NCBI RefSeq assembly: GCF_900156875.1
Contig: NZ_LT707408.1
Span: forward strand, 1,023,009 to 1,087,008
From: Robertmurraya dakarensis
GTDB lineage: Bacteria > Bacillota > Bacilli > Bacillales > Cytobacillaceae
Length of the DNA stretch: 64,000 nucleotides
Direction of reading: 5' to 3'
Positions 3,779 to 31,214 of the stretch are shown here, piece by piece (position 1 is the stretch's first letter; every line of letters begins with the position of its first letter). The translations under genes were made by a program, and so were the position numbers. The notes beneath the pieces were generated by a model that had not been told where the DNA came from, did no database searches, and saw only the letters and a list, made by a program, of their open reading frames with translations.

Positions 3779-3826
3779 ATGGAGTATAAACATTTAATAA
3801 TGAAGGAATCGTCACAGAAGCGATGA
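3779..3826 (+). CDS. 15-codon leader ORF overlapping the YitT-type gene
   Basis: ATG at 3779 has an excellent GGAGGG site about 8 nt upstream. It encodes MEYKHLIMKESSQKR and stops at TGA 3824-3826, which overlaps the ATG of the next gene (ATGA). The next gene has no good ribosome site of its own at usual spacing: the nearest AAGGA is about 15 nt away. The arrangement therefore suggests translational coupling through a leader peptide. No homology is claimed for so short a peptide. Confidence 0.5.
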   Translation: MEYKHLIMKESSQKR

Positions 3827-4446
3827 AATTAAAAAAAACCTTTATAACCTATTGCTGTTTACTTTTCGGTGCTGTCATGCAGGGAATGTCCATGTCGTTC
3901 TTCTTGTTTCCTCACTCAATACCATCTGGTGGTGCCGCGGGAATAGCCATTCTAATGAATCACTGGTTTCATACTCCTTTAGGTTTTTCGTTATGGCTGG
4001 CAAATATTGTTTTTTTAGTTTTTGCACTGCAATACTTTGGTTATACTTGGACATTTCGAACAATTTTTTCTGTAGCTACGACATCGGCAACGGTCAGTTA
4101 CATCACTACACAGGTTCAAATTCCACATGTGCATATACTTGTAGATATAGCTGCAGGCAGTCTTTTCTTTGGGATTGGTGTCGGTTTGTTGATCAGGGCT
4201 GGAGCTTCCAGCGGAGGGATGGTTATCCCGGCGTTAATGATTGCTTCATATAAGAATTGGAGTCCAGGTAAAGTCATGATGGGAATTAACTTAATAATAT
4301 TTTTATTAACGGCACTTGTGATTGATTATAAAATTGTTATATTTGCTATTATCTGTCAATTTTTTTCAACGAATATTATCGATTTTATTTATGAAATGCG
4401 TCTTCCTAAAGGAGATGTGCTGACTCTAAACTGGAGGAAAAAGTAA
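3823..4446 (+). CDS. YitT/DUF161-family integral membrane protein
   Basis: A 207-residue hydrophobic protein with about five or six membrane segments. The conserved N-terminal stretch (MSFFLFPHSIPSGGAAGIAI) and the repeat-like Gly-rich loop GLLIRAGASSGGMVIPALM are typical of the YitT family. It is shorter than usual YitT proteins (about 280 residues) because the soluble C-terminal DUF2179 domain is missing; it ends soon after the last helix. B. subtilis YxkD-type proteins are comparable. Substrate and function are unknown. Translation probably depends on the overlapping leader ORF. Confidence 0.75.
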   Translation: MKLKKTFITYCCLLFGAVMQGMSMSFFLFPHSIPSGGAAGIAILMNHWFHTPLGFSLWLANIVFLVFALQYFGYTWTFRTIFSVATTSATVSYITTQVQIPHVHILVDIAAGSLFFGIGVGLLIRAGASSGGMVIPALMIASYKNWSPGKVMMGINLIIFLLTALVIDYKIVIFAIICQFFSTNIIDFIYEMRLPKGDVLTLNWRKK

Positions 4447-4474
4447 GAAGATCCTAAATTAAAGGATCTTCTTA
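4444..4474. terminator. Bidirectional terminator between the YitT-type gene and cysC
   Basis: A 12-bp stem (TAAGAAGATCCT / AGGATCTTCTTA) with a 7-nt loop overlaps the stop codons of both convergent genes. On the minus strand it is followed by CTTTTTCC. It should stop both transcripts. Confidence 0.7.
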
Positions 4475-5058
4475 CTTTCTAAATAAGTTACTATTTCTTC
4501 AACTGATTTTTCAATGGTCGTTTTGTCTGTTTCGATGATTAAATCAGGATTATCTGGAGCTTCGTATGGAGAAGAAATCCCTGTGAAATTAGGGATATCT
4601 CCCTTTCTAGCTTTCTTGTATAACCCTTTTGGATCCCGTTGTTCACACACATTGATGGGGCAGGCCACATAGATTTCAATAAATTCTCCTTCTTCAAACA
4701 TTTTTCGTACCTGCTGCCGATCTTCTTGATAAGGGGAAATAAAAGCAGTTGATACAATTTGGCCGCTATCGACAAATAACTTTGCTACCTCACCGATTCT
4801 ACGTATATTTTCCTTTCGGTCGTTTGCACCAAAACTCAAATCCTTGTTTAGGCCGTGGCGGATATTATCCCCGTCAAGGACATAGCTTTGAATATGCTGT
4901 TGAAACAATTTCTGGTCGATCGCATTAGCTAATGTTGATTTCCCAGACCCGGAAAGCCCTGTGAACCATAACACGCAGCTCTTATGCTGATTTTTTAGCT
5001 GACGGTCTTTCTTTGTTACAGTAGAATGGTGCCATGTGATGTTTTGGTCATTTCTCAT
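4459..5058 (-). CDS. cysC: Adenylylsulfate (APS) kinase
   Basis: It phosphorylates APS to PAPS with ATP. The 199-residue protein has the P-loop [12 protein letters not shown] (about residues 34-45), the [15 protein letters not shown] substrate loop, the FISPYQEDR motif and the [24 protein letters not shown] lid, all standard for CysC. It starts 3 nt after sat with an AGAGGGTG site and is the last gene of a leftward operon with comA, a histidine phosphatase, cysH and sat. A kinase is not strictly needed if the reductase takes APS, so its presence suggests PAPS is the reductase substrate or a by-product. Confidence 0.93.
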
Positions 5059-5061
5059 TTT

Positions 5062-6261
5062 CTACACCCTCTGAAAATTTGTATCTGCTTCCTGCATCCC
5101 TTTAATGAGGATTTCAACGACTTCAGGACGACTGAATTCCTTAGGAGGATGAATACCGGACTTTAGCATTCCTCTGACCTTTGTCCCAGAAAGTATGACA
5201 TGTGAATCTTTATTATGCGGGCAGGTTTTAGAAGAAGCCATATTTTCACACTTTTTACAATAAAAACTATGCTCGAAAAATAGCGGCTGAATCCCCAGCT
5301 CTTCTATGGAAAAATGACTGAATATCTTTTGTGCATCGTATGTTCCGTAATAATCACCTACACCAGCGTGATCTCTTCCGACAATGAAGTGAGTACAGCC
5401 ATAATTCTTACGGACAATCGCATGAAAAATGGCTTCCCTTGGACCAGCATAACGCATAGCCGCGGGAAAAACCGATAGAAAAACTCGATCTTTTGGATAA
5501 TAATGTTCTAGTAACACTTGATAACTTTTCATGCGGATATCACTTGGGATATCGTCTGATTTTGTTTCTCCAACAAGTGGGTTTAAAAAGAGTCCGTCAA
5601 CAACTTCTAGTGCAGATTTTTGAATATATTCGTGAGCGCGGTGAACGGGGTTTCTTGTTTGAAAACCAACGATCGTATTCCAGCCAAGCTGCTTGAATTT
5701 CTCTCTTGTTTGTTTTGGGTCTAAGTAAAAAGAATCGAATTGGTTTTTTTCTGGTCTTTTTACTAAAGTAACCTTTCCTCCAAGATAGTACTCTGCCCGA
5801 GAAAACAACTTCTTAACTCCTGGATGATTAAGATCTGTTGTTTGGAAGACATGCTCTGCTTCTCTTAATTTATTCGGAGAAAAAATCTCACTAATTTCCA
5901 TGACTCCATAGATATGACCATTGTATTTAAGATTTATCGTTTCACCAATTCCTAGTGTCATAGCTTTTTCTTTTGATACAGCTAAAGTAATTGGCAGGGA
6001 CCAGGGCAAGCCGCTTGAGAGTCTCATATTTAGTACTACTGATTCATAATCCTTCTTATTCATAAATCCTTCAAGAGGACTATAACCGCCATTTGCAATT
6101 AACTCGAGATCACTTAATTCTAATATATCTAGTTCTACAAAATTACGATCCTCATAAATTTCTTCTTCAAGATTGATGCGATTTATTAATATTCCACCAT
6201 GTGGGATGCATTCTTTCACGATTTTTTCCTCCCCAATTGAAATCTCTCTTTTTATTTCCAT
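5062..6261 (-). CDS. sat: Sulfate adenylyltransferase (ATP sulfurylase)
   Basis: It makes APS from sulfate and ATP. The protein matches the monofunctional Bacillus Sat family: PHGGILINR near the N-terminus, [17 protein letters not shown] (nucleotide-binding QxRN and HxxH), [24 protein letters not shown], and a C-terminal CxxC...C zinc-like motif ([17 protein letters not shown]). The start is placed at ATG 6261 (399 residues) because family homology begins there. The frame continues upstream inside cysH, where it gives non-homologous sequence. It is 7 nt downstream of cysH, so the two are cotranscribed. Confidence 0.93.
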
Positions 6262-6268
6262 TCTATCT

Positions 6269-6973
6269 CTACGATTGGTGCAGTCCGCACTCTGTTTTCG
6301 AAAGACCGGCCCATCTGCCGGAACGCTGATCATTTTCATCAAAGACTGGCTGAGTACATGGAGCACACCCAATGCTAGGGTAACCTTGATCATGAAGAGG
6401 ATTATATGGAAGATTGTTTAATTTGATATAGTTCATAATGTCATCCCATGACCAATGGATAAGGGGACAGATCTTAACTTTTTTAAATTTCTCGTCTTTA
6501 TTGACGTATTGAGTGTTACTTCTGCTTGGAGATTGTTCCCGTCTTAAACCCGAAATCCAAGCTTTAACACCGCTTAATGCTTCTTGGAGTGGGGCTACCT
6601 TCCTCATATGACAGCAGAGATTAGGATGGTGTTTCCATAGCTCATCTCCATACCATTTTGACTGTTCTGGCAGAGAAATTTTTGGTTTCACCATTTCAAT
6701 TGTAAGTGAAGGGTACTGTTTTTTTACTTTATCAATTAGTTCATAGGTCTCTTGGAAATGGAGTCCGGTATCTAGAAAAATAATTTTAGCCTTTTTGTTC
6801 ACCTTATAAATGAGGTCTATTAGTACGATTCCTTCTGCTCCGAAGCTGCAAGCATAGACGATGTCATCTTTGTATTCGTTATAGGCCCATTTTAAAACAT
6901 CTAAGTAATCCGGTTGAGTTTCGAAGATATTACATTCTTCAACCCAATTTTCATACGTGATAGGTTCAGACAA
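6269..6973 (-). CDS. cysH: APS/PAPS reductase (sulfite-forming)
   Basis: It reduces (P)APS to sulfite with thioredoxin. The 234-residue protein has [12 protein letters not shown] (PP-loop), Cys pairs C120-C121 and C203-x2-C206, and the C-terminal catalytic motif ECGLHQS (C229). The CC/CxxC set marks the [4Fe-4S] type that uses APS, and in Bacillus also PAPS. The start is TTG at 6973 because GGAGG lies 7 nt upstream; the other TTG at 6997 has none. No sulfite reductase genes follow in this operon, which implies the sulfite goes elsewhere. Confidence 0.93.
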
Positions 6974-7004
6974 AATGATTCCTCCGTTCTTTGTCAAACT
7001 CTGT

Positions 7005-7532
7005 TTAGATTCTCAAGGTTATGCATTGATTGTTATTCACAATGATTTTATTCATGTGGTTAATGTCGCCATATCGGCAATATGATAAGAGTGCTCTAAT
7101 CCAAGATCCATGTCCAAAAATTAAAATATGATTGTACCTTTTGTACTTCTCTAGGAATAAAATAATTCGGTTTTCAAGTTGTGCAATACTTTCACCTAGT
7201 TTTAATTCTTTTGGATTTTCAATCCATTGCTGACCATAGTGTTCAATAAGCTGATCCTTACTGCGTCCTTCGAATGGACCAAAATCAAGCTCATCTAGGA
7301 GGCTGTCTGCTTCAGCTGCATAACCGTAAAGCTGAGCTGTTTCATGAGTTCGTGCAAGCGTACTAGCCAAGATTAAATCAAAAGGGGAAAGTGCCTTTAA
7401 CAGCTGCTGATTTTCGTTGATTTCTTTTTGGATCGATTCTGTTACGGGTAAAATACGAATATCTCTTCTGCCTTGCAGCTTTTTCTGTTTATTCCAATGT
7501 GTTGGAAGATGTCTTATAACGGTAATTTCCAT
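7005..7532 (-). CDS. Histidine-phosphatase-family protein, candidate phosphosulfolactate phosphatase
   Basis: A 175-residue member of the phosphoglycerate-mutase-like superfamily. It has R7-H8 in IRHLPTHWN (the usual RHG has Leu for Gly), R61 in STLARTHETA, E82 in DELDFGPFEG and H141 in FGHGSW, so the catalytic set is complete. Its start overlaps the end of comA by 19 nt with a GGAGGACA site, so the two are translationally linked. It sits where a ComB-type phosphatase would be needed to dephosphorylate the ComA product. The substrate is therefore inferred to be 2-phosphosulfolactate; family membership alone does not show this. Confidence 0.8.
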   Translation of the reverse strand: MEITVIRHLPTHWNKQKKLQGRRDIRILPVTESIQKEINENQQLLKALSPFDLILASTLARTHETAQLYGYAAEADSLLDELDFGPFEGRSKDQLIEHYGQQWIENPKELKLGESIAQLENRIILFLEKYKRYNHILIFGHGSWIRALLSYCRYGDINHMNKIIVNNNQCITLRI

Positions 7533-8284
7533 TCACTGTCCTCCAAAAAAAAGGTCTCGCTTCTTAGCCCGCATCGCTGTGCTTCGAGGACTAAGACGTC
7601 GTTTAATTTGACATTACCTAAATTCACATTTGCTCCAATTTCATTAATAAAATACATCTGGTGTTTCGGTGTTGGGGCTTCAAAAATAATTCTCTTATGA
7701 TCAATATCTTTTATTAACTCGCGAATTAGATTAGATTTAACGGCACCGTTACTACTGTAAATTCCTGCGGAACCAGAATCTCTTCCTTCAGTTATCACAT
7801 ATTCACTGCCGGCTTCGAGCAGGAGCTGCATCTCTTTCTTCCACTGGGAAATAGACAATTCTTTATCCCCATCTTTTGAACCCACTTCTGCTATGACATT
7901 AAAATCCTTCTTTATTTTTTGTATTAAATCAAGCCGTTGTACTAAAGGAATCTCTATTGTGCCGTTTGAAACTTCAACCCATTGTATCCCTAAATTTCGA
8001 AGACACTGCAGGAATTCAGGTATTTTATTTTGAGAATAGCACTTTTCAAAAAGTGTTCCGCCGCAGTAAGGTTTAATGTTGTAAGCCTTGTATAAATCAA
8101 TTTTTTTTTGCAGGTTTGGTGTGATATAAGCGGACCCAATTCCAATTTTCGCGATATCAATAAATGGATGATAATCCTCTAAAATATTGGTTAGTTCACC
8201 GATTGGAGTTCCAAAATCTATAATAGATGTTAAGCCAAAAGTTCTGTCCCCTGTTGTTCTTTGCGGTAATTTCAAAAAATCCAT
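7514..8284 (-). CDS. comA: Phosphosulfolactate synthase (ComA/YitD family)
   Basis: It adds sulfite to phosphoenolpyruvate, giving (R)-2-phospho-3-sulfolactate. The 256-residue TIM-barrel protein matches Bacillus YitD along its length: IDIAKIGIGSAYITPNL, PYCGGTLFEK, WVEVSNGTIEIP, EVGSKDG, VITEGRDSGSAGIYSSNG, FEAPTPKHQMYFINEIG and a C-terminal GLRSETFFL. The ATG has a GGAGGAGG site. It is the first gene of the operon and defines the pathway as C3-sulfonate synthesis. In B. subtilis the equivalent yit genes are tied to sulfolactate found in spores; coenzyme M synthesis is unlikely here because no later com genes are present. Confidence 0.92.
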   Translation of the reverse strand: MDFLKLPQRTTGDRTFGLTSIIDFGTPIGELTNILEDYHPFIDIAKIGIGSAYITPNLQKKIDLYKAYNIKPYCGGTLFEKCYSQNKIPEFLQCLRNLGIQWVEVSNGTIEIPLVQRLDLIQKIKKDFNVIAEVGSKDGDKELSISQWKKEMQLLLEAGSEYVITEGRDSGSAGIYSSNGAVKSNLIRELIKDIDHKRIIFEAPTPKHQMYFINEIGANVNLGNVKLNDVLVLEAQRCGLRSETFFLEDSEWKLPL

Positions 8285-8342
8285 AGGAAAAGAGCCTCCT
8301 CCATTTTTCTAGGATAGATTATTCAAAAAATGGGTGAATGTG

Positions 8343-8452: not shown

Positions 8453-9697
8453 ATGCCAAAGCAAAAAAATAAAGGCATGACTATTTTTGCAATTGGTTCA
8501 ATCCCGCTTATTCTTGTTTTAGGGAACTCCATGTTAATCCCTGTATTACCCAAAATGAAAACAGAATTGGATGTATCACAGTTCAAAATCAGTTTAATCA
8601 TTTCTGTTTTTTCAATTGCTGCCGCGATATCTATTCCTATATTAGGATATTTATCTGATCGTTTCTCGCGCAAAGCTGTCATCATCCCCGCTCTAATTTT
8701 GTATGGTAGCGGCGGACTCTTAGCAGGAGCTGCAGCGGCATGGTTTTCAAATGCGTATACATGGATTCTCGCAGGAAGAATAATGCAAGGGCTTGGTGCT
8801 GCAGGAACAGCTCCCATTGCAATGGCATTAACAGGGGATTTGTTTAAAGGGGGAGAACAAAGTAAAGTTCTAGGTTTAGTGGAAGCTTCCAATGGATTCG
8901 GTAAAGTGATCAGTCCTATTATTGGATCTTTGTTAGCTTTAATTTTTTGGTATGCAGCATTTTTTGCCTTCCCAGTATTTTGCCTTATCTCAGTTTTTCT
9001 TACCATATTTTTTGTAAAAGAGAAAAAAGCAGAGAAAGAGCCGCCACCCGTTGGCAAATATATTAAAGGATTGGCGTCTGTTTTCAAAACGGAAGGCCGC
9101 TGGTTATTTGCCGCCTACTTTACTGGAGCAACTTGTTTGTTTACTTTATTTGGAATTTTGTTTTATATTTCCGATATCCTTGAAAAGGATTACGGCATAG
9201 ATGGTGTGTTAAAAGGAGGTATTTTAGCCATTCCTCTTTTATTTATGACAACCACATCTTATTTTACCGGAAGTAAAATTGGCAAGAAAATGCCGTTAAT
9301 GAAAAAGTTAATCGTTTTAGGTTTGCTTTTAATGACAATCTCATTTTCCACTCTTACATTATTCAAAAGCTTGGTCCCTTTCTTTGCTATTCTTGTTATA
9401 AGCAGTATTGGAACAGGATTGGTATTGCCATGCATTAATAGTTTTATTACCGGCTCGGTTCCAATGGACCGGAGAGGATTTGTGACTTCGTTATATGGGT
9501 CTGTCCGTTTTCTTGGTGTTGCGATAGGTCCTCCCATTTATAGTACATTAATGGAATGGTCCCGCACAGGCATGTTCCTTACAACTGCTGGTTTGACGTT
9601 ATTTGCAGGTTTGCTTAGTTTGACTCTAATACATGTTAAGAAAAAAGAACCATCAGAAGAGAATGACACACTCTTTGAAAAACTGCAATTTACTTAA
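8453..9697 (+). CDS. MFS transporter, YitG/multidrug-efflux type
   Basis: A 414-residue 12-helix major facilitator. [10 protein letters not shown] in the loop between helices 2 and 3 is the MFS signature, and [19 protein letters not shown] matches the helix 4-5 region of drug:H+ antiporters. It starts at ATG 8453 with an AGGGGTGG site and diverges from the comA operon. B. subtilis also has an MFS gene (yitG) near its sulfolactate genes, so export or forespore loading of sulfolactate is an attractive inference. By sequence it could equally be a general efflux pump. Confidence 0.85.
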
Positions 9698-9739
9698 TAT
9701 AAGCAGGGGACTTTGATTCTTAAAAAAGGAGAGATGGGT

Positions 9740-10021
9740 TTGCAAATTTACTTTTCACCAGAAGTGATTACCCCAGAATTCCAGGTTCTCAATGTGGTTG
9801 ATTCATCGAACAAAGCAGTTGGCAATGTAGCATTTCTATTTGATGAAAAGAAACTTTACGTTTATGGAATATTGGAAGAGGAGGGAGTAGGATCTGATTT
9901 TAAAGACCTCGTCACTCCATATATTAAGGGGCTGGCTAAAGCGAAGCCGGGATTAGACATTTTTTCCTGCTTATATGTGGGATGTAAAAAGATTAAATTG
10001 AATGAAGAAGAGAGTGAATAA
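9740..10021 (+). CDS. Hypothetical protein of 93 residues
   Basis: I do not recognise a family. The TTG at 9740 is preferred because AAGGAG lies 8 nt upstream; the ATG at 9734 is only 2 nt from that site. The protein begins MQIYFSPEVITPEFQVLNVV and looks like a small beta-rich cytosolic protein with a charged tail (KLNEEESE). Two cysteines lie close together (SCLYVGC). It begins 42 nt after the MFS gene and ends at a strong terminator, so it is probably cotranscribed with that transporter. Confidence 0.6.
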   Translation: MQIYFSPEVITPEFQVLNVVDSSNKAVGNVAFLFDEKKLYVYGILEEEGVGSDFKDLVTPYIKGLAKAKPGLDIFSCLYVGCKKIKLNEEESE

Positions 10022-10160: not shown

Positions 10161-10190
10161 GAGAGAAGAGCAGTTTGGGGAGTGCGCCGC

Positions 10191-10955
10191 ATGAGCATTG
10201 CAATTATTATAATGGGGCTAATGGTCGGGTTTTTGGTCGGACTCACAGGAGTTGGTGGTGCAGCCCTCTTAACCCCGATATTAATTATACTGGGGATTAA
10301 CCCATCAATTGCAGTGGGAACTGATTTAGCTTACAATTCAATTACAAAATTATTTGGGTCATTTCAGCACTGGAAACAAAAGACGATCAATCTACAATTA
10401 GTAAAATATTTGGCAATCGGGAGTATTCCAAGTGCCATTCTTGCAGTAGGAGCGTTGCAGCTTTTTGATACTTTTTTTCACAATCAAGAAGCAATTATCA
10501 AGCATGCATTAGGCTATGTGCTAATACTAGTAGCTTTGGCCACGTTAATCAAAACTTTCTTAAAAGAAAGATTTGAGTGGAACGTATTTCAGAGAAAGCC
10601 CATCGAAAACAAAAAGTTACTAACGATTACAATCGGGGCAGGCTTAGGATTTCTCGTGGGACTAACGTCAATTGGTTCGGGCTCTTTGTTCGCGCTGGCT
10701 ATGTTGTTTCTTTATAAATTAAAAACATCTGAATTAGTCGGGACGGATATTGCTCATGCTTTTTTGTTAGTCACGGTCGCTGGCTCACTGCATGCTGGGA
10801 TAGGGAATGTTGATTATTTATTGATGGTCAATCTCCTGGTTGGCTCAATTCCAGGCGTTATTTTAGGCAGCAACTTATCATCAAAGTTTCCAGCGAAGCC
10901 GTTAAGGGCAATTGTCGCTGTGATGATCTTGATTAGTGGAATAACTTTATTATGA
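10191..10955 (+). CDS. TauE/SafE (TSUP) family sulfite/sulfonate exporter-type permease
   Basis: A 254-residue membrane protein made of two related halves. Each begins with a Gly-rich motif (GFLVGLTGVGGAALLTPIL and GFLVGLTSIGSGSLFALAML) and each contains a VGTD motif followed by Ala or His, as in TSUP proteins. About eight membrane segments are predicted by eye. ATG 10191 is chosen because GGGGAG lies 8 nt upstream; the frame-opening GTG at 10182 overlaps that site. The family moves sulfite, sulfoacetate or other small sulfur and carbon anions. Its closeness to the sulfite-producing operon is suggestive but it is a separate transcript. Confidence 0.85.
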   Translation: MSIAIIIMGLMVGFLVGLTGVGGAALLTPILIILGINPSIAVGTDLAYNSITKLFGSFQHWKQKTINLQLVKYLAIGSIPSAILAVGALQLFDTFFHNQEAIIKHALGYVLILVALATLIKTFLKERFEWNVFQRKPIENKKLLTITIGAGLGFLVGLTSIGSGSLFALAMLFLYKLKTSELVGTDIAHAFLLVTVAGSLHAGIGNVDYLLMVNLLVGSIPGVILGSNLSSKFPAKPLRAIVAVMILISGITLL

Positions 10956-21601: not shown

Positions 21602-23743
21602 ATGCATAAGGAAAAAATAGTTCTTGTCGGCAATGGGATGGCGGGGATTCGGTGTGTAGAAGAAATAATAAAGCGTAGTCCCGATCGCTTTGCTATTACT
21701 ATTTTTGGGAGCGAACCACATGAAAATTACAATCGTATTCTTTTGTCTTCGGTTCTTCAGGGGGAGGCATCTTTTGAGGATATAACGACTCATAATTCTG
21801 AATGGTACCGGAATAATAACATTCAACTGTTTGTAAATGAGACTGTAACCTGTATTGATGGTGATAATAAAACGATCATGACAAACAAAGGCAGGCATAT
21901 CTCCTACGACAAACTAATCTTAGCTACCGGATCTATTCCTTTTCTTCTGCCTCTTCCAGGAAATGATTTAGAGGGAATTATGACATTTAGAACAATTGAA
22001 GATTGCGAGAAAATAATTGAATCTTCTAAATGGTGTAAAAAGGCGGTTGTAATTGGTGGAGGAGTCTTGGGGCTAGAAGCAGCAAGAGGGCTTCTTCACT
22101 TGGGATTAGAAGTTCATGTGGTCCATCTTTCGCCGTTCATTATGGACCGGCAATTAGATAGTGTGGCCGCACGGCTTCTTCAAAAGGAGCTCGAAAAACA
22201 AGGGATGAGATTTCTTTTAGAAAAAGAGACGAGTAAATTTACCGGAAATAATCGAGTTGAAAAAGTAATGTTTAAGGATGGTGGCGTAGTAGATACTGAT
22301 CTAGTCGTCATGGCAGCGGGGGTTCGGCCGAATATTACTTTGGCGAAAGAGTGTGGTATTCAAATAAATCATGGCATCGTTGTGAATGATTATTTAGAAA
22401 CGAACAAGAAAGACATATACGCTTTAGGTGAATGTGCTGAGCACAATGGAGTGGTGTATGGTCTTGTCAAACCTCTTTATGAGCAAGGAAGAATCTTAGC
22501 TAGACGTATTTGTGGACAAAACAGTGAAAGGTATAAGGCTGCTGCACTATCTACAAAATTAAAAATATCAGGTGTTGATGTGTTTTCGGCAGGACAGTTA
22601 GAAGTGAGGGATGGGAAGATATTAACTGCTTATGATGAATCAGAGCGAATATATAAGAAGCTTGTCTTCCAAGGTAAAACAATTATGGGTGCGGTTCTAT
22701 ACGGAGATACTCGAGAAAGTACGAGAATACTGGAGTGGATTCAAAAGAAAAAAGAACTTACTGATAAAGAAAAACTCCTTCTGCTTGAGTGTGAAAATCA
22801 AGATCTTTCAATGGCTAATCTGCCGCAAAATAGTCTGGTTTGTAACTGTAATGGTGTAACGAAAAGAACAATCATAGAATCTGTCAGGAAAGGCGGGTTA
22901 TCAACGGTCGAGGAAATAAAAAAATGCACAAAGGCTTCTAGTTCATGCGGTGGTTGCAAACCGTTGATAACTGAACTGCTAGCTTATATTAAGAGTGATC
23001 AGTTCAGCGAAATGACTGTCGAGCAAGGAATGTGTTCCTGTACATTGTTAACTGAAGATGAAGTTGTTGAGCAAATACAAACTCACGGGCTAAAGTCTGG
23101 TGGGGAAATAAAGGGTGTGCTTGAATGGGGTTCTGAAGAAGGCTGTCATAGATGCAGACCAGCATTAAATTATTATTTGGGGATGATTTATCCCGAATCA
23201 CAAGAGGTGAATTTGGATTTAGAAAGTATTCAAGAAAATACTGTAAGGGCTGTTAAGGCTTATGCAATTCCACAGGATTGTCATTGCTCGGTAAAAGAAC
23301 ATTATAGAATGGCAAACACTATTAAAGATAAGATAGAGTTTTTAACTACACCTTATAGATTAACGATTGGAGTTTACCCGTGTACTCATGGCAGTTCGAG
23401 GTCGATGCCGGAAGATGTAAGAGTTATCAAGAGTCCTAGAGGATGGGAGGTCTATGTTGGAGGAAATGAAGGATCCAATCCAACTTCGAAAGAGCTGCTA
23501 TCAATAGCAGCCAGCGAAGTTGGAGTATTTGAAGATGTGTGTGGGTTTGTTCAGTATTACCGAGAAACGGCGAAATATTGGGAACCGACAGGGAAATGGA
23601 TAGAGAGACTTGGCTTGATACACATAAGAGAGGTGTTGTTTGACCATGAGGCAAGAAAATGGCTTCTTAAGCGATTGGAAAAGGATGCTGTCATGATAAG
23701 AAACAGAAGAGATCCTATGCCAGCTGAAACTACTAGCATATAA
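21602..23743 (+). CDS. nasB: Assimilatory nitrate reductase electron-transfer subunit
   Basis: A 713-residue flavoprotein passing electrons from NAD(P)H to NasC. Order: FAD/NAD pyridine-nucleotide oxidoreductase (about 1-400, VLVGNGMAGIRCVEEI; AVVIGGGVLGLEAARGL), a BFD-like [2Fe-2S] domain (CNCNGVTK...CGGCKPL, about 415-460), a second Cys-rich BFD-like repeat (CSCTLL...CHRCRPALNYYL, about 475-530), then a C-terminal remnant of the nitrite-reductase siroheme domain. In that remnant only one Cys (PCTHGS) is left of the C-x5-C and C-x3-C ligands present in NasD, so it cannot bind siroheme normally. It is a clear paralog of NasD. GGAGGT precedes the ATG. Confidence 0.9.
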   Translation: MHKEKIVLVGNGMAGIRCVEEIIKRSPDRFAITIFGSEPHENYNRILLSSVLQGEASFEDITTHNSEWYRNNNIQLFVNETVTCIDGDNKTIMTNKGRHISYDKLILATGSIPFLLPLPGNDLEGIMTFRTIEDCEKIIESSKWCKKAVVIGGGVLGLEAARGLLHLGLEVHVVHLSPFIMDRQLDSVAARLLQKELEKQGMRFLLEKETSKFTGNNRVEKVMFKDGGVVDTDLVVMAAGVRPNITLAKECGIQINHGIVVNDYLETNKKDIYALGECAEHNGVVYGLVKPLYEQGRILARRICGQNSERYKAAALSTKLKISGVDVFSAGQLEVRDGKILTAYDESERIYKKLVFQGKTIMGAVLYGDTRESTRILEWIQKKKELTDKEKLLLLECENQDLSMANLPQNSLVCNCNGVTKRTIIESVRKGGLSTVEEIKKCTKASSSCGGCKPLITELLAYIKSDQFSEMTVEQGMCSCTLLTEDEVVEQIQTHGLKSGGEIKGVLEWGSEEGCHRCRPALNYYLGMIYPESQEVNLDLESIQENTVRAVKAYAIPQDCHCSVKEHYRMANTIKDKIEFLTTPYRLTIGVYPCTHGSSRSMPEDVRVIKSPRGWEVYVGGNEGSNPTSKELLSIAASEVGVFEDVCGFVQYYRETAKYWEPTGKWIERLGLIHIREVLFDHEARKWLLKRLEKDAVMIRNRRDPMPAETTSI

Positions 23744-23804
23744 CGCTTATGGAATGTCTAATGGATAGCCGTGATCGTTCACTGAAAAGAAGAGAGGAAT
23801 GAGC

Positions 23805-25940
23805 ATGACAGAATTATTATTAAAATACTTCCGGTCAAAGCAGCAAGAAGTCCAATCAGAAAAGGTATATGATACACAATGTCCTTTTTGCAGTATGCAA
23901 TGTAAAATGCAGTTGATTGAACAATCCATTGTTAAGAGAAAGAAATATAGAGTTACTGGAAAAGATAATCCGACTTCGCAGGGGAGAATTTGTGTTAAAG
24001 GGGTGAACGCACATCAGCATGTGCTTCATCCAGAGCGAGTGATGTATCCTTTATATAAGCAAAACGGTAAGTTTAATCGGATTTCTTGGGATGAAGCAAT
24101 TTCTATTATTAATGAAAGGTTTCGTAAAATCCAATCTCAGTATGGTTCAAATAGTTTGTCATTGTATGGAGGAGGTTCGTTAACCAATGAAGTTTCCTAT
24201 TTAATGGGGAAATTTGCCAGGGTTGCCTTGGGGACGAAATATATTGATTATAATGGGAGGTTTTGCATGTCGGCTGCTGCATCTGCGGCAAATGCAGCAT
24301 TTGGAATCGACCGGGGATTTACGAACTCTTTATCAGAAATACCAGACTCCAAATGCATCCTATTAGTTGGGACGAATATTGCGGAATGTCAACCGACAAT
24401 ATTGCGGTATTTTGAAAAAGCAAAAGAAAACGGCTCGTATATTATTGTTGTTGATCCGCGTGAAACCGCCACTGCTAAACTAGCTGATCTACATCTAAAA
24501 ATAAAACCGGGAATGGATGCAGCTCTCGCAAACGGCTTGTTGAAGGTATTAATTGAAGGGAATTATATGGATAAAAAATTTATTACCAACCGAACAATGG
24601 GGTATGATGAGGTTCAATCTAATGTTTCATCCTATGACTTTGAGGAGATTGAATCACTAACTGGAATTTCACTCTCTGAAATTCGCAAAGCTGCTGTTAT
24701 GTTTGGGGAATCTGAGACAGGGATGATTTTTACAGCCAGAGGGGTCGAACAACAGACAGATGGGTACATGGCTGTAAGGAATTTCTTGAATATTCTTTTA
24801 TTAACAGGAAAAATTGGAAAGTATGCGTGTGGCTACGGAGCGATAACGGGTCAAGGAAATGGTCAAGGCGGTAGAGAACATGGTCTAAAAGCAGATCAAT
24901 TACCTGGATATCGCTCTATTGAAAACAGGGAACATCGTCAGCACATTGCAGATGTATGGGGAGTTCCTGAGAAGGAATTGCCGAGAAAGGGAGTTTCGGC
25001 TTATGAAATGATGGAAAAAATAACTCACGGTGAAATTAAGGGCATGCTTCTGATGGGATCCAACCCAATTGTTTCAAACCCAAATGCCGATTTCGTTAAA
25101 AAATCATTAGCTCAATTGGATTTTTTAGTAACTGTAGATATGTTCATATCTGAAAGTGCTGCCATGTCAGATTTAATTTTGCCCGCTTCCTCTTACCTGG
25201 AAAATGAAGGGACAATGACGAACTTAGAAGGTAGAGTGGTGTTTCGAGAGGCGAACCGCCAGACTCCTGGAGAAGTTAAACATGACTGGGAAATACTTTG
25301 TGAGATAGCTAAGGCGTTAAACAAAGAAGAATATTTTTCTTTTTCTTCACCAGAAGATATATTTAATGAACTTAGAATTGCCAGCAAAGGGGGAGTTGCT
25401 GATTATTACGGGATTACCTATGAGCGCCTAAAACAAGAAAGAGGGATCCTTTGGCCATGTCCTGATGTTAACGATGCGGGCACCAAAAGACTATTTGACG
25501 AGACTTTTTATCATCAGGACGAAAAGGCGGTCATGATTCCTGTTTCAAATCAGCCTAAAGTTCCAAAAGACATTAATAACCAACAATATCCTTTAACTTT
25601 AACTACAGGCAGAGTCATGTCGCATTATTTGACAGGTGTTCAAACGAGGAGAAGTCCATCGCTTTCAGCGAGAAATTTTGAATCATTTATTGAAATTCAT
25701 CCGAGAACAGCTGAAGAATATAACATTCGAGATGGGATGTTAGTAGAGGTGCAATCGAAAAGAGGGAAGATAGTTGTTAGGAGTAAATTAACCGAAATGA
25801 TTCGGCAGGATACTGTTTTTGTTCCGTTTCATTGGTCTGAGACACAAAATGTCAATGTTTTGATATCGGATGAACTTGACCCTGTTTGCCGAATGCCTGG
25901 ATTTAAAGTATGTGCTGTAAACATACGTCCGCTTGATTAA
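23805..25940 (+). CDS. nasC: Assimilatory nitrate reductase catalytic subunit
   Basis: A 711-residue Mo-bis-MGD oxidoreductase reducing nitrate to nitrite in the cytoplasm. An N-terminal [4Fe-4S] motif (CPFCSMQCKM...GRICVKG) is followed by the molybdopterin oxidoreductase core (GSNSLSLYGGGSLTNEV; NGRFCMSAAASAANAAFG with the Mo-ligand region; VDPRETATAKLADLHL) and the C-terminal dinucleotide-binding domain (LTLTTGRVMSHYLTGVQTRR; HWSETQNVNVL). No Tat signal is present, consistent with an assimilatory enzyme. ATG 23805 is chosen 7 nt after AGAGAGG; the ATG at 23799 is too close to the site. It lies 61 nt after nasB. Confidence 0.93.
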   Translation: MTELLLKYFRSKQQEVQSEKVYDTQCPFCSMQCKMQLIEQSIVKRKKYRVTGKDNPTSQGRICVKGVNAHQHVLHPERVMYPLYKQNGKFNRISWDEAISIINERFRKIQSQYGSNSLSLYGGGSLTNEVSYLMGKFARVALGTKYIDYNGRFCMSAAASAANAAFGIDRGFTNSLSEIPDSKCILLVGTNIAECQPTILRYFEKAKENGSYIIVVDPRETATAKLADLHLKIKPGMDAALANGLLKVLIEGNYMDKKFITNRTMGYDEVQSNVSSYDFEEIESLTGISLSEIRKAAVMFGESETGMIFTARGVEQQTDGYMAVRNFLNILLLTGKIGKYACGYGAITGQGNGQGGREHGLKADQLPGYRSIENREHRQHIADVWGVPEKELPRKGVSAYEMMEKITHGEIKGMLLMGSNPIVSNPNADFVKKSLAQLDFLVTVDMFISESAAMSDLILPASSYLENEGTMTNLEGRVVFREANRQTPGEVKHDWEILCEIAKALNKEEYFSFSSPEDIFNELRIASKGGVADYYGITYERLKQERGILWPCPDVNDAGTKRLFDETFYHQDEKAVMIPVSNQPKVPKDINNQQYPLTLTTGRVMSHYLTGVQTRRSPSLSARNFESFIEIHPRTAEEYNIRDGMLVEVQSKRGKIVVRSKLTEMIRQDTVFVPFHWSETQNVNVLISDELDPVCRMPGFKVCAVNIRPLD

Positions 25941-25970
25941 TTTATTTATAATTTGAAGGGAGCACTTTAG

Positions 25971-28385
25971 ATGGATAAAAAGAGGTTGGTTCTTGTAGGT
26001 AATGGGATGGCAGGCGTAAGAGCAATTGAAGAGATTTTAAGCATTTCCAGGGATCAGTTTGAAATTACTATTTTCGGTAGTGAACCATATCCAAATTATA
26101 ATCGGATTCTTTTGTCGAAAGTTTTGCAAGGTGATACTAGCGTTGAGGATATCACGTTAAATGACTGGGACTGGTATAAAGAAAATGGAATTACATTGTA
26201 CACAGGCGAAAGTATTACGAAAATTGAAACGGGAAGAAAAGTAGTAATCTCTGATTCTGGCAGGACCGTTCGCTATGACGATTTGATAGTAGCTGCTGGA
26301 TCTAATCCTTTTATTCTACCTATTCCAGGGGCAGATAAAGAAGGAGTAACAGCATTCCGTGACATTCAAGATACAGAAAAGATGCTTTTAGCTTCCAAGA
26401 AATACAAGAAAGCGGCTGTTATTGGAGGAGGTTTGCTAGGGTTAGAGGCGGCGCGTGGTCTTTTGAATTTAGGAATGGATGTTTCCGTTATTCATATAGA
26501 ATCGTATTTAATGGAAAGACAACTAGATATGACGGCAGGAAAGATGCTTCAAAAAGAATTAGAGGCACAAGGGATGAATTTTCTCCTTGAAAAACATACA
26601 GAAAGCATTATCGGAAATGACCGGGTTGAAGGTTTGAAATTTAAAGATGGCTCAACGTTGGACGTAGATATCGTCGTCATGGCGGTCGGAGTTAGACCGA
26701 ATACATCATTAGCCAAAGAAAGCGGGATTGAAGTCAACCGCGGAATAGTGGTAAATGATTATATGCAGACGAATATTCCTCATGTTTATGCTGTTGGGGA
26801 ATGTGCAGAACATAATGGAATTCCATATGGGTTGGTAGCTCCGTTGTATGAACAAGGAAAAGTGTTGGCTAAACATGTGTGTGGAATTGAAACGGCACCG
26901 TATAAAGGGTCGGTCTTGTCTACGCAATTAAAAGTTTCTGGAGTAGAGGTCTTTTCTGCAGGTGACTTTAGTGAAGATGATGAGAAAAAGGCATTGAAAG
27001 TTTACGACGAGCAGGATGGAGTGTATAAGAAAATTGTATTTCGCGGCAATACGATTGTTGGGGCAGTGCTTTTTGGTGACACACAAGAAGGGAACCGGCT
27101 ATTCGCAATGATCCAAAAGCAGGCAGATGTCTCAGATACGGCGAAGATTTCAATCTTACAGCCTATTGGTCAAGAAGCGACTGAAAGTTTAGTAGCAAGT
27201 ATGGATCGAGATGAGATTGTGTGTGGGTGTAATGGTGTTTCCAAAGGTGCTATTGTAGATGCTGTTCAATCTCAAGGGTGTACGACTGTGGATGCTGTAA
27301 AAGGATGTACCAATGCTTCTCGTTCTTGTGGGGGCTGTAAGCCTCTTGTCGCAGATTTGATACAGTACACGCTTGGGTCTGATGTTGATATCGATGGAGA
27401 AAAAGAAGCTATATGCGGTTGTACCACACTATCTCGAGATGAAATTGTAGAAGAAATTCGCTCAAAAGGATTAACACATACAAAGGAAGTGATGAATGTC
27501 CTTGGCTGGGGTACTGAAGAAGGGTGTTCAAAATGCCGTCCGGCCCTAAATTACTATTTAGGAATGGTAAATCCAACAGAATATAAGGATGAAAAGGAAT
27601 CTCGGTTCGTCAATGAACGGATGCATGCCAATATTCAAAAGGATGGCACTTACTCAGTTGTTCCTAGAATGTATGGTGGGGTTACAAATGCGGATGATTT
27701 GCGAAAAATAGCTGATGTGGTTGATAAGTACGAAATTCCGTTAGTGAAGGTGACTGGTGGACAGCGTATTGATTTACTAGGTGTAAAAAAAGAAGATCTG
27801 CCTAAAGTTTGGTCAGATCTTGATATGCCTTCGGGATATGCTTATGGCAAATCACTGCGAACGGTGAAAACATGTGTAGGGGAACAATTCTGCCGCTTCG
27901 GAACACAGGACTCCCTTGGGATGGGAATAGCATTAGAAAAGAAATTTGAAGGACTTCAAACTCCTCATAAAGTAAAAATGGCTGTTTCTGCCTGTCCAAG
28001 AAGCTGTGCAGAATCTGGTTTTAAAGACATAGGCTTTATCGGTATAGACGGCGGATGGGAAATTTATGTTGGCGGTAATGGGGGAAATCATATTCGCGGT
28101 GGGGATTTATTATATAAAGTTAAATCTGATCAGGAATTAATGGAAGTTACAAGTGCTTATCTGCAATATTATCGGGAAACAGCCAACTATTTAGAACGAA
28201 CTTCATTTTGGGTGGAACGTATGGGATTAGATCATATCAAAACAGTGCTGGATGACAAGGATAAAAGAAGAGAATTGAATGAACGAATGGATGAAACGTT
28301 GTCAGTTTACAAAGATCCGTGGAAAGAAATCATTCAGGACGATCAGACAAAAAGGGAATTGTTTGAAGAACTCGTACGATCATAA
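25971..28385 (+). CDS. nasD: Assimilatory nitrite reductase [NAD(P)H] large subunit
   Basis: An 804-residue siroheme enzyme reducing nitrite to ammonium. Order: FAD/NAD oxidoreductase (1-400), BFD [2Fe-2S] domain (CGCNGVSK...CGGCKPL), second Cys-rich repeat (CGCTTLS...CSKCRPALNYYL), ferredoxin-like half domain (from about 550), then the siroheme/[4Fe-4S] domain with both ligand motifs: TCVGEQFCRFG (about 632-642) and SACPRSCAES (about 672-681). Unlike NasB it keeps all four Cys ligands. It follows nasC by 30 nt with an AAGGGAG site. Confidence 0.95.
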   Translation: MDKKRLVLVGNGMAGVRAIEEILSISRDQFEITIFGSEPYPNYNRILLSKVLQGDTSVEDITLNDWDWYKENGITLYTGESITKIETGRKVVISDSGRTVRYDDLIVAAGSNPFILPIPGADKEGVTAFRDIQDTEKMLLASKKYKKAAVIGGGLLGLEAARGLLNLGMDVSVIHIESYLMERQLDMTAGKMLQKELEAQGMNFLLEKHTESIIGNDRVEGLKFKDGSTLDVDIVVMAVGVRPNTSLAKESGIEVNRGIVVNDYMQTNIPHVYAVGECAEHNGIPYGLVAPLYEQGKVLAKHVCGIETAPYKGSVLSTQLKVSGVEVFSAGDFSEDDEKKALKVYDEQDGVYKKIVFRGNTIVGAVLFGDTQEGNRLFAMIQKQADVSDTAKISILQPIGQEATESLVASMDRDEIVCGCNGVSKGAIVDAVQSQGCTTVDAVKGCTNASRSCGGCKPLVADLIQYTLGSDVDIDGEKEAICGCTTLSRDEIVEEIRSKGLTHTKEVMNVLGWGTEEGCSKCRPALNYYLGMVNPTEYKDEKESRFVNERMHANIQKDGTYSVVPRMYGGVTNADDLRKIADVVDKYEIPLVKVTGGQRIDLLGVKKEDLPKVWSDLDMPSGYAYGKSLRTVKTCVGEQFCRFGTQDSLGMGIALEKKFEGLQTPHKVKMAVSACPRSCAESGFKDIGFIGIDGGWEIYVGGNGGNHIRGGDLLYKVKSDQELMEVTSAYLQYYRETANYLERTSFWVERMGLDHIKTVLDDKDKRRELNERMDETLSVYKDPWKEIIQDDQTKRELFEELVRS

Positions 28386-28416
28386 ATCTAAAACCATATC
28401 AATGGAGGTGTTCTAA

Positions 28417-28743
28417 ATGGTAAACAAAAATGTGACAAAAATTCTAATAGGTTTTGTTCATGAATTACCGGAAAAATTAGGAAAAACAGTTCTGATTGGG
28501 GATAGGGAAGTTGCGGTATTTAAATTATCAAGCGGGCGTATACGTGCAATTGAAAATCGCTGCCCTCATAAAGGTGGTGTTTTATCTGAAGGTATCGTGA
28601 GTGGGGAGTTTGTTTTCTGTCCGATGCATGATTGGAAAATTTGTTTAGACGATGGGAAAGTGCAGGAACCGGATAAAGGTTGTGTTAAATCTTACCAAAC
28701 AGCTATTGAAGGAGAGGAAGTCTATCTTATAATAGAAGAATAA
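28417..28743 (+). CDS. nasE: Nitrite reductase small subunit, Rieske-like
   Basis: A 108-residue beta-rich protein with a complete Rieske [2Fe-2S] motif: [10 protein letters not shown] and FCPMHDWKI, giving C-x-H and C-x2-H ligands. NirD-type small subunits often lack these residues, but the Bacillus NasE form retains them. GGAGGTG lies 7-8 nt before the ATG. It forms the nitrite reductase complex with NasD. Confidence 0.92.
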
Positions 28744-28757
28744 TGTTAACAAAGTAA

Positions 28758-28779
28758 CTCCAGCGTCTTGGCGCTGGAG
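28758..28779 (+). other. Stable hairpin between nasE and hemD
   Basis: An 8-bp GC-rich stem CTCCAGCG / CGCTGGAG with a 6-nt loop has no T-run. It may protect or process the upstream mRNA and lower downstream expression, rather than terminate fully. Confidence 0.5.
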
Positions 28780-28880
28780 CAAGACTAAAAAGTGGAAAGG
28801 TATCGGATGTTAACAATTATCCGAATTCAAATCTGCTTTGTTAGCGTGCTTTATAAGATTAATAGTTGGAGGTATTTTTT

Positions 28881-29690
28881 ATGAAAAAGCTTGAGGGAAA
28901 AGTAATTGCACTGCTTGGTTCGCGAAAAATTGATGAAATGAGCAAACTGGTTGAGAACCAAGGAGGAGTTCCTCTCAGCAGACCTGCGCAAGGGACGGCT
29001 ATTCTTGATGACTCTAAGTTAAAAGAAGACTTGTATCTCCTTGTTGAAGGGAAGTTTGAATGGGTTATTTTTACTACCGGAATAGGGATTGAAACCTTAC
29101 TTAACGCTGCAGAGAAAAACAATATGAAGGAAGAATTTCTGCGCAGTCTTAAAGGGATGAAAATAGCTGCCAGGGGATACAAAACCGTCAATATGTTAAA
29201 AAAACTAGAACTGATACCGCTTGTGCGGGATGATGATGGCAGTACTGCAGGATTGGTGCGTGAACTTTCGGCTCATTCTCTTGAAAAAAGCAGAGTCGCT
29301 CTTCAATTACACGGAGATCCCGCACCGCGTTTGAGAGAATGGCTGGAAGAACAGCATGCTGAGTATAAGGAAATCCTTCCTTATATACATATAGCCCCAG
29401 AAAAGGATGTATTGGAAAAATTATTATCTGAAATTTTGAATGGTGATGTGGATGCTGTTGTTTTTACGAGTACACCGCAAGTGCGCAACCTTGTGAATTT
29501 CAGTGCTGAACGAAATTTGGAACGTGAACTCAAAGAGAAGTTTGAAGATGAGGTTGTTGCCTTGTCTGTTGGAAAAGTAACTGCACAAGCACTGCGTGAA
29601 GAAGGAATTAATAAAGTGGTGTTTCCGCAGTTGGAAAGAATGGGAAGTGCAATTGTTGAATTAGCAAATTATTATCATCAAAAAGCATAG
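28881..29690 (+). CDS. Uroporphyrinogen-III synthase family protein (HemD-like)
   Basis: A 269-residue two-domain protein of the HemD fold: KVIALLGSRKIDEMSKLVENQGG, then EWVIFTTGIGIETLL, KIAARGYKTVNMLKKL, GDVDAVVFTSTPQVRNL and ALSVGKVTAQALREEGI near the end. It should cyclise hydroxymethylbilane to uroporphyrinogen III, the siroheme precursor. ATG 28881 has a GGAGG site. Placed between nasE and nasF, it would raise precursor supply when nitrite reductase is made. A housekeeping hemD is presumably elsewhere. Confidence 0.8.
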   Translation: MKKLEGKVIALLGSRKIDEMSKLVENQGGVPLSRPAQGTAILDDSKLKEDLYLLVEGKFEWVIFTTGIGIETLLNAAEKNNMKEEFLRSLKGMKIAARGYKTVNMLKKLELIPLVRDDDGSTAGLVRELSAHSLEKSRVALQLHGDPAPRLREWLEEQHAEYKEILPYIHIAPEKDVLEKLLSEILNGDVDAVVFTSTPQVRNLVNFSAERNLERELKEKFEDEVVALSVGKVTAQALREEGINKVVFPQLERMGSAIVELANYYHQKA

Positions 29691-29712
29691 AAAATATAGG
29701 GGTGGAGAGATG

Positions 29713-31197
29713 ATGAAGGGTAAAGTTTTCCTTGTTGGTGCAGGACCTGGGGATGCAGGGTTACTCACGATTAAAGGTCTTAAAGTAATTGAACAAGCAG
29801 ATGTGATTTTATATGATCGCTTAATAAACCCAAGACTATTAGAATCCGCCCCCTCTCATTGTGAATTTATTTTTTGCGGGAAACTTCCCTCTAAGCATAC
29901 ATTAGACCAGGATATGATTAATGAACAGCTTGTTCTAAAAGCGTTAGAAGGGAAGATAGTTGTTAGGCTAAAAGGAGGCGATCCTGGAGTATTTGGAAGG
30001 GTAGGGGAAGAAGCAGAAGTGCTTGCTTCCTATAAGATCCCGTTTGAAATCGTTCCTGGTATTACTTCGGGGATTGCTGCCCCGATATATGCGGGAATAC
30101 CAGTTACTCACCGGAAATTTGGAGTATCGTTTACGATTGTTTCAGCACACGATAAATCAGAGGGAGGAAAGCCTGTTATTGATTGGAGTGGCTTGGTCCG
30201 CAGTTCTGAAACGATTGCCTTTTATATGGGAGTTTCTAATCTTCCTTACATATGTGAGAATCTAATTCATCATGGGAAATCTGCGGATACTCCTGTAATC
30301 CTCATTCAATGGGGGACATATGGAAGGCAAAGAACTCTTCAGGGCACCCTTTCTGATATAGTAAACAAGGTCAAAGAAAACGGTTTCCAGAATCCAGCAA
30401 TTACGTTAGTTGGTCAGATTGTGTCATTAAGAGAGAATATTCAATGGTTTGAGAAAAAACCTTTTTATGGGAGACAAATTCTTTTAGCACGAACGAATGC
30501 GGGCAGAAGCTCTATTGCGGAGAAACTGCAAGGGCAGGGAGCAGATGTGATTGAGTTTCCGAAGTGGATTAGAAAGAAAGTCCCTGCTGATACAAAAATA
30601 TTAAATCAAATTTTTTCTTATGATCAAATTTTATTCACTTCCTCGGACAGTATTGATGAATTTTTTGATATAGTAGTTTCATATGGCTTAGATATTCGGA
30701 ATATTAGGGCAAATTTGTATTGTTTGTCAAATAAGTCACTAGAGACATTAAAATCAAGAGGTCTTATTGCGTGCAGCTATAAAAATATGAAGATGGAGCA
30801 ATATGGGAAGATTTTAGTGGTTGGAGATCGTCGTGTAGGTGAACAGAGGATGATTCGCGAGATTGAACTTGTTCGACATGATTATTTTCAAACAAGTAAA
30901 GTAGAAATAGATGAAAAATTTATTCCGATACTAAAAAGAATGTTTGATGAAGCTTCGATTGATACGGTTATTTTTCCGAATAGATCATCAGTTGAAGCGG
31001 TCATGAGTGTTGGTGAAAAATGGGGTTTTCCGATTGGAGAAATTTTAAAAGATGCTTCGATTTGCGGGATGGGTAAAGGATCTAGGGAAAGGACTGAAAA
31101 TTGGGGACATCCACTTGATTTTAAGCCCATGGAACCCGGTATTGAAAATCTAATTAATGGATATAGGGACCAAAGGTTTAATATGGTCAAAATTTAG
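29713..31197 (+). CDS. nasF: Uroporphyrinogen-III C-methyltransferase fused to a HemD-like domain
   Basis: A 494-residue protein. Residues about 1-245 are a full SUMT/CobA domain: VFLVGAGPGDAGLLTIKG, ADVILYDRLI, VVRLKGGDPGVFGRVGEEA, PGITSGIAAPIYAGIPVTHR and NPAITLVGQIV. It methylates uroporphyrinogen III to precorrin-2 with SAM. Residues about 250-494 resemble a diverged HemD fold (RQILLARTNAGRSS; QILFTSSDSIDEFF; SIDTVIFPNRSSVEAVM). The ATG at 29713 is 5 nt from GGTGGAG and is preferred to 29710. With the separate HemD gene this makes two HemD-like modules in one operon. Confidence 0.88.
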   Translation: MKGKVFLVGAGPGDAGLLTIKGLKVIEQADVILYDRLINPRLLESAPSHCEFIFCGKLPSKHTLDQDMINEQLVLKALEGKIVVRLKGGDPGVFGRVGEEAEVLASYKIPFEIVPGITSGIAAPIYAGIPVTHRKFGVSFTIVSAHDKSEGGKPVIDWSGLVRSSETIAFYMGVSNLPYICENLIHHGKSADTPVILIQWGTYGRQRTLQGTLSDIVNKVKENGFQNPAITLVGQIVSLRENIQWFEKKPFYGRQILLARTNAGRSSIAEKLQGQGADVIEFPKWIRKKVPADTKILNQIFSYDQILFTSSDSIDEFFDIVVSYGLDIRNIRANLYCLSNKSLETLKSRGLIACSYKNMKMEQYGKILVVGDRRVGEQRMIREIELVRHDYFQTSKVEIDEKFIPILKRMFDEASIDTVIFPNRSSVEAVMSVGEKWGFPIGEILKDASICGMGKGSRERTENWGHPLDFKPMEPGIENLINGYRDQRFNMVKI

Positions 31198-31214
31198 GTT
31201 GTTTGGAGGTTAAA

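Follow-up and report, generated by a model that had tools for sequence, protein, structure and literature searches.

The locus examined here raises the question of how 2-phosphosulfolactate would lose its phosphate where a comA gene has no comB beside it; ComB (YitC) is the standard 2-phosphosulfolactate phosphatase. The window, i.e. the whole 64,000-nucleotide stretch of Robertmurraya dakarensis DNA analysed (positions 1023009-1087008 of contig NZ_LT707408.1, in a genome of 5.48 Mb), carries five genes in series on its minus strand from 8284 to 4459, each with a clear family match. The first is comA (7514-8284), encoding a YitD-like phosphosulfolactate synthase of 256 aa (PF02679, 269.8 bits against a cut-off of 25.2), followed by a gene for an RHLPT-type histidine phosphatase (HP) of 175 aa (7005-7532; PF00300, 92.5 bits against a cut-off of 21.7), cysH for an adenosine 5'-phosphosulfate (APS)/3'-phosphoadenosine 5'-phosphosulfate (PAPS) reductase (6269-6973; PF01507, 203 bits; TIGR00434, 315 bits), sat for an ATP sulfurylase (5062-6219; PF01747, 340 bits; PF14306, 166 bits; NF003166, 585 bits) and cysC for an APS kinase of 199 aa (4459-5058; PF01583, 240 bits; TIGR00455, 296 bits). 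As in the spore sulfolactate pathway of Bacillus, sat, cysC, cysH and comA are linked and stand apart from the assimilatory set; unlike in that pathway, comB is not beside comA. We consider it probable, from gene content and conservation, that this operon is a sporulation-dedicated sulfate-to-3-sulfolactate pathway in which HP takes the place of ComB. The sulfate-to-sulfolactate branch itself is already known from B. subtilis; the likely novelty is that, across many Bacillaceae, ComB has apparently given way to a dedicated, non-orthologous histidine phosphatase. A search of the open literature found no paper pairing "phosphosulfolactate phosphatase" with "histidine phosphatase", although subscription papers lay mostly outside that search and an earlier mention is possible.

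The first-pass annotation of this DNA had described the five genes as packed head to tail with overlaps or gaps under 35 nt. The order and strand are as it stated, and so is the tight spacing of comA/HP (an overlap of 19 nt), HP-cysH (31 nt) and sat-cysC (3 nt), but cysH and sat are 49 nt apart. These distances use revised translation starts: cysH probably starts at TTG 6973 after CGGAGG rather than at 6997, and sat probably at GTG 6219 after GGGGAGG rather than at 6393, the start of the mechanical call, from which the open reading frame (ORF) runs over the end of cysH. That the ORFs are artefactual is ruled out by the family scores of the five genes. The same annotation had outlined the route from sulfate to sulfolactate, an outline that is supported but not new, and had named the histidine phosphatase without giving it a role.

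Alternation of HP and ComB beside comA

No PF04029 (ComB) match exists in the window genome, while a control search was positive in B. subtilis. Among 397 sampled genomes of the order, 68 have a ComA over the Pfam cut-off; HP adjoins comA in 37 of them, ComB in 25, both in none and neither in six. Two of the 25 comA-adjacent ComB genes (in G250 and G227) are convergent and of another subgroup. An HP alignment search (E ≤ 1e-20) detected the family in 38 of the 397 genomes, and in 37 of these 38 HP adjoins comA. Four families (f1, f41, f42 and f15) hold both the HP and the ComB type, from which we infer that the modules were exchanged or differentially lost. In a wider sample of the phylum (398 genomes, about 15 of them from the organism's own class), ComA exceeds the cut-off in 136; no HP except that of the window passes 200 bits, and the remaining 27 matches reach at most 88 bits, a gap that sets the comA-linked HP family clearly off.

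The linkage recurs in the best 80 of 103 relatives from a scan of species genomes, loci that overlap in part with those of the sampled genomes, so that the counts are not independent. comA lies directly before HP in 79 of the 80, the matched stretches being spaced from -16 to +89 nt and overlapping in 63 of the 79. These loci come mostly from Bacillus, Neobacillus, Mesobacillus, Robertmurraya, Siminovitchia and similar genera, with one from Paenibacillus. The single exception is a metagenome-assembled genome (MAG) titled Thiomargarita, where comA is missing both from the locus and from the genome as a whole, the completeness of the MAG not being given; its HP gene (L176:6001-6540) adjoins genes that by eye resemble trigger factor, clpP and clpX.

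HP carries the full set of catalytic residues of the histidine phosphatase superfamily, namely the R-H pair, a second R, an acidic E and a second H: R7, H8, R61, E81 and H141 are invariant in 37 of 37 relatives and also in 10 of 10 paralogues. Its best model match is the CobC model TIGR03162 at 91 bits, all others scoring at most 45 bits, and its best PDB matches are likewise CobC and branch-1 histidine phosphatases. HP as CobC was rejected, since the score misses the TIGR03162 cut-off of 162.9. RHLPT in the comA-linked family corresponds to RHG in each of 10 paralogues, taken from 15 rows, with which it was compared, and the family is marked by its own L9, P10, K92, W144, R146, N161 and N168. 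The comA-linked HPs and two comA-less members group apart from the RHG-type paralogues with a support of 93. Two of the marker residues, K92 and R146, may bind the sulfonate or the carboxylate.

An apparently dedicated sulfate set and its putative promoter

The genome encodes one ComA and two CysH proteins. The second cysH lies about 0.43 Mb off in the order cysH-cysP-sat-cysC (cysP matching PF01384), followed by three siroheme-type genes named by eye, with cysJ and cysI about 12-15 kb ahead, so that all of these are some 0.41-0.43 Mb from the comA cluster. The search for a second sulfate set that the first-pass annotation had proposed thus has a positive outcome, and the idea that the comA cluster is the only sulfate set of the genome, named there as part of a refuting outcome, is ruled out. 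Its statement that cysJI genes are lacking holds for the cluster but not for the genome, whereas its view of a sulfonate branch separate from cysteine synthesis is supported by the second assimilatory set and by a conserved sigma-K-like promoter before comA. As far as gene content tells, the comA cluster appears to be a dedicated second sulfate set. An Rfam search of two loci of this genome (L080 and L081) and three relatives returned no riboswitch at the gathering score and did not show an S-box on the second cysH; two small RNA matches were obtained in L028.

Upstream of comA, the predicted sigma-K-like promoter (8315-8341, minus strand) consists of AC (8341-8340), 16 nt and AATAATCTA (8323-8315). 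Of 96 distinct regions upstream of comA, 81 contain the conserved pattern AC-N15..17-[AC]ATANNNTA within 80 nt of the gene, compared with a mean of 1.2 and a maximum of 3 in shuffles, which are first-order resamplings; the 96 regions are related and are therefore not independent draws. They derive from 119 upstream regions after removal of short or identical ones, out of 120 loci in total, the MAG locus L176 having no comA. The best sites lie mostly at -43 to -35 from the comA start codon. With one mismatch allowed, the sigma-K pattern occurs in 93 of the 96 regions (shuffles 18.2), compared with 6 for sigma E (shuffles 4.2), none for sigma G (0), 9 for sigma F (15.8) and 2 for sigma A (0.4), none of which approaches the sigma-K count; all these consensus patterns are our own assumed forms. 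At the ComB-type loci the loose promoter form is found in 8 of 25 (shuffles 1.1). A scan for sigma-70 sites gave 15 against 13.5 expected and was not used, and no claim is built on the GerE-like core (RCCYA, from a consensus that we presume) present in the promoter spacer in 68 of 96 regions. According to a study of B. subtilis, sigma K and sigma E share an identical -10 element, sigma K has C at the fourth -35 position, and the gap is 14-16 nt (PMC517825). We treat the element before comA as sigma-K-like and unproven.

At the other end of the operon, the fold of 4421-4500 (-25.9 kcal/mol) contains a stem-loop of 18 pairs on the minus strand (4438-4480) that carries the cysC stop codon in its loop, so that the operon probably ends there. 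This stem-loop, which the consensus terminator scan did not list, is a probable terminator shared with the convergent YitT-family gene.

Taken as a pathway, Sat and CysC would convert sulfate to APS and PAPS, CysH would reduce APS/PAPS to sulfite, and ComA would join sulfite to phosphoenolpyruvate (PEP) to give (2R)-2-phospho-3-sulfolactate, from which HP would strip the phosphate through a phosphohistidine on H8 to yield sulfolactate. The substrate of HP, the product of the pathway and the time and place of expression are predictions drawn from sequence. The sigma-K-like promoter would mean late transcription in the mother cell, like that of the B. subtilis genes yitCD and yitBA-yisZ; these are described as inferred to act in phosphosulfolactate synthesis and as expressed late in the mother cell, yitCD chiefly under sigma K (PMC517825).

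Identity of the product and alternative roles for HP

Several observations weigh against a sulfolactate operon in which HP replaces ComB. The first concerns the promoter, whose -10 element is AATANNNTA; the strict CATANNNTA form occurs in only 2 of the 96 upstream regions, and 84 of the 96 best sites begin the -10 element with A instead of C, while the architecture and the -35 element otherwise fit sigma K. The second concerns the genomes: PF04029 genes occur away from comA in 13 of the 37 HP genomes, though not in the window genome. As a side observation, PF04029 scores of genes unlinked to comA are in many cases 150-222 bits and in a few 90-126 bits, compared with 113-143 bits for 23 of the 25 comA-adjacent ones, so that the family seems to include another subgroup, whose function may differ. 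Three genomes (G190, G382 and G343) keep comA-cysH-sat-cysC with comA directly before cysH, and genome-wide they have neither an HP of the comA-linked family nor ComB; the phosphatase step there would be carried out by something else or be dispensable. All three loci (L032, L038 and L044) bear one genus code, g65. Conversely, two genomes, G009 and the Thiomargarita-titled MAG, have HP without ComA; the HP of G009 has C in place of N168, a residue invariant in the 37. The remaining comA genomes with neither phosphatase adjoining are G396, whose isolated comA (L014:7572-8369) lies between genes resembling clpX and lonB by eye, and G292 and G373, whose divergent ComA-like protein (L031:7519-8346 and L040) has other surroundings, in L031 a neighbour that by eye looks like an MmgE/PrpD-type gene.

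The third group comes from ComA itself and holds points on both sides. The window's ComA matches B. subtilis 1u83 with an E-value of 3e-51 and scores 225.5 bits with the archaeal equivalog TIGR03849, under the cut-off of 280. On a quick tree of all 68 comA rows, which is unrooted and drew a long-branch warning from the program, the 37 HP-linked and the three HP-less ComA proteins fall on one side of a branch of length 1.28 (Shimodaira-Hasegawa-like approximate likelihood-ratio test, 99). HP and ComB types change once on this tree, and their alternation is one event rather than many. Over the main matched stretch, the HP-type ComA is 34-41% identical to the ComB type. The HP type departs from the ComB type at 40 of the 88 positions that the latter conserves, 20 of the 40 being polar or charged; in this count "conserved" means at least 95%, G292 and G373 were left out, G250 and G227 were set aside, and G396 was counted as ComB-type and the three HP-less rows as HP-type. 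The changed positions include F47, W49, T51, D155, E169, K206, T235, L236 and D243, which by eye are common to B. subtilis and archaeal ComA, and so the product could differ; E169D and D243E are mild among these changes.

Such a difference is the core of the best-surviving alternative, in which the acceptor that HP-type ComA uses for sulfite, or for another nucleophile, is not PEP, and HP takes the phosphate off the different product so formed. The long branch, the 40 altered positions with W49 and D155 among them, 34 positions conserved only in the HP-type clade, and a different phosphatase accompanying this ComA in 37 of 40 genomes are all in line with it. However, 48 of the 88 positions are kept, 23 of them polar or charged, including K46, E104, E133, K137, E166, R168, E202, N221, N224, R237 and R241, together with the motifs GGT-FEK, EVG-KD, E-R--G, IFEAP and N--N; sulfite-making genes adjoin the HP-type comA in most loci; and the YitT and MFS (major facilitator superfamily) genes flanking the operon recur at some ComB-type loci (YitT at 13 and MFS at 9 of the 25). 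On balance we regard a different product as unlikely. A related reading, which we hold only tentatively and also doubt, is that Bacillaceae possess a second sulfonate module of separate assembly, made up of the HP-type ComA and its own phosphohistidine phosphatase and producing a C3 sulfonate spore solute. This solute may be 3-sulfolactate or a close relative of different chemistry or stereochemistry, and the module would then alternate with the ComB module across families as a second solution to the same step.

Alternatively, HP could clear 3'-phosphoadenosine 5'-phosphate (PAP) or another nucleotide of sulfate activation, with an unlinked general phosphatase handling phosphosulfolactate. This would fit the cys genes beside HP, since all three of cysH, sat and cysC are present in 57 of the 79 named comA-HP loci and some of them in 10, whereas cysH lies beside comA in only 4 of 25 ComB-type loci. 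Yet none of the three is present in the other 12 comA-HP loci (among the 22 loci whose cys set is incomplete, the downstream sequence is shorter than 4 kb in 2), and the state of having any or none changes at least seven times on the comA tree of the 79 loci, indicating that HP follows ComA and not sulfate activation. In addition, the three HP-less loci retain cysH-sat-cysC, HP is missing from the four ComB-type loci that have all three cys genes, and no HP is listed among the ORFs of the second cysH-sat-cysC set of the R. dakarensis genome. A role as PAP phosphatase was therefore set aside on account of the 12 loci without cys genes, and we judge it quite improbable. That HP is a phosphoglycerate mutase-like enzyme supplying PEP to ComA, with a general phosphatase removing the phosphate, is very improbable indeed: the superfamily includes cofactor-dependent phosphoglycerate mutases and HP weakly matches several such models and structures, but the phosphatase CobC is its best model (91 bits against at most 45 for others) and alternation with ComB fits a phosphatase.

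Neighbouring genes and relation to known systems

The operon is flanked by a convergent YitT-family membrane gene (3823-4446, plus strand; PF02588, 132 bits), present in 76 of the 80 named loci, and by a divergent MFS transporter gene (8453-9697, plus strand; PF07690, 238 bits), present in 78 of the 80, which scores 455 bits with NF053757, under the cut-off of 600. Presumably these are YitE-like and YitG-like, respectively, judging from the B. subtilis gene order. Beyond the transporter, 9713-10021 encodes a protein of 102 aa that lacks a Pfam match and has counterparts in 115 of the 120 loci, and 10182-10955 a TauE/SafE-family permease, near the sulfite pathway, with a homologue in 54 of the 120 (the window's own being counted in both cases); the permease may export sulfite or a sulfonate. 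A Coat_F gene at 521-1135 fits a spore former. In the region 21602-31991, a nitrate reductase-like molybdoprotein stands between two NirB-like proteins, and uroporphyrinogen methyltransferase/HemD-like and CbiX/SirB-like genes come next; from its NIR_SIR matches and genes named by eye the region looks like a nitrate assimilation and siroheme cluster. About 2 kb to the left of the window, contig positions 1019333-1020949 (L080:9334-10950) encode a 538-aa NIR_SIR protein with ferredoxin-like half domains.

If replacement of ComB by HP is correct, a definite function can be given to one small histidine phosphatase of a superfamily that is hard to assign by sequence, and a pathway usually recognised by comB could become visible in many Bacillaceae whose comA lacks an adjacent comB, in Neobacillus, Mesobacillus, Lederbergia, Robertmurraya, Siminovitchia, Fredinandcohnia and other genera. 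Sulfolactate storage in spores could also be predicted from it, species by species. In the B. subtilis study, sulfolactate makes up 5% of the dry weight of that species' spores, whereas B. cereus and B. megaterium spores are reported to have yielded none (PMC517825). Sulfolactate released at germination could feed sulfonate degraders (PMC9826295).

With respect to known phosphatases, HP shares with CobC and other branch-1 histidine phosphatases the His_Phos_1 domain and R7, H8, R61, E81 and H141, but it differs from CobC in RHLPT, K92, W144, R146, N161 and N168 and in its TIGR03162 score below the cut-off. HP resembles ComB in the identical reaction proposed for it and the identical place beside comA, yet it is of another family and has no PF04029 match. 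Histidine phosphatases act via a phosphohistidine, and ComB is Mg-dependent.

The sulfolactate genes of B. subtilis, yitCD and yitBA-yisZ, have in common with the R. dakarensis operon Sat, CysH, CysC and ComA as well as YitT-family and MFS neighbours. They differ in that R. dakarensis has one unidirectional operon instead of two, a ComA of a separate clade, and HP instead of ComB (YitC).

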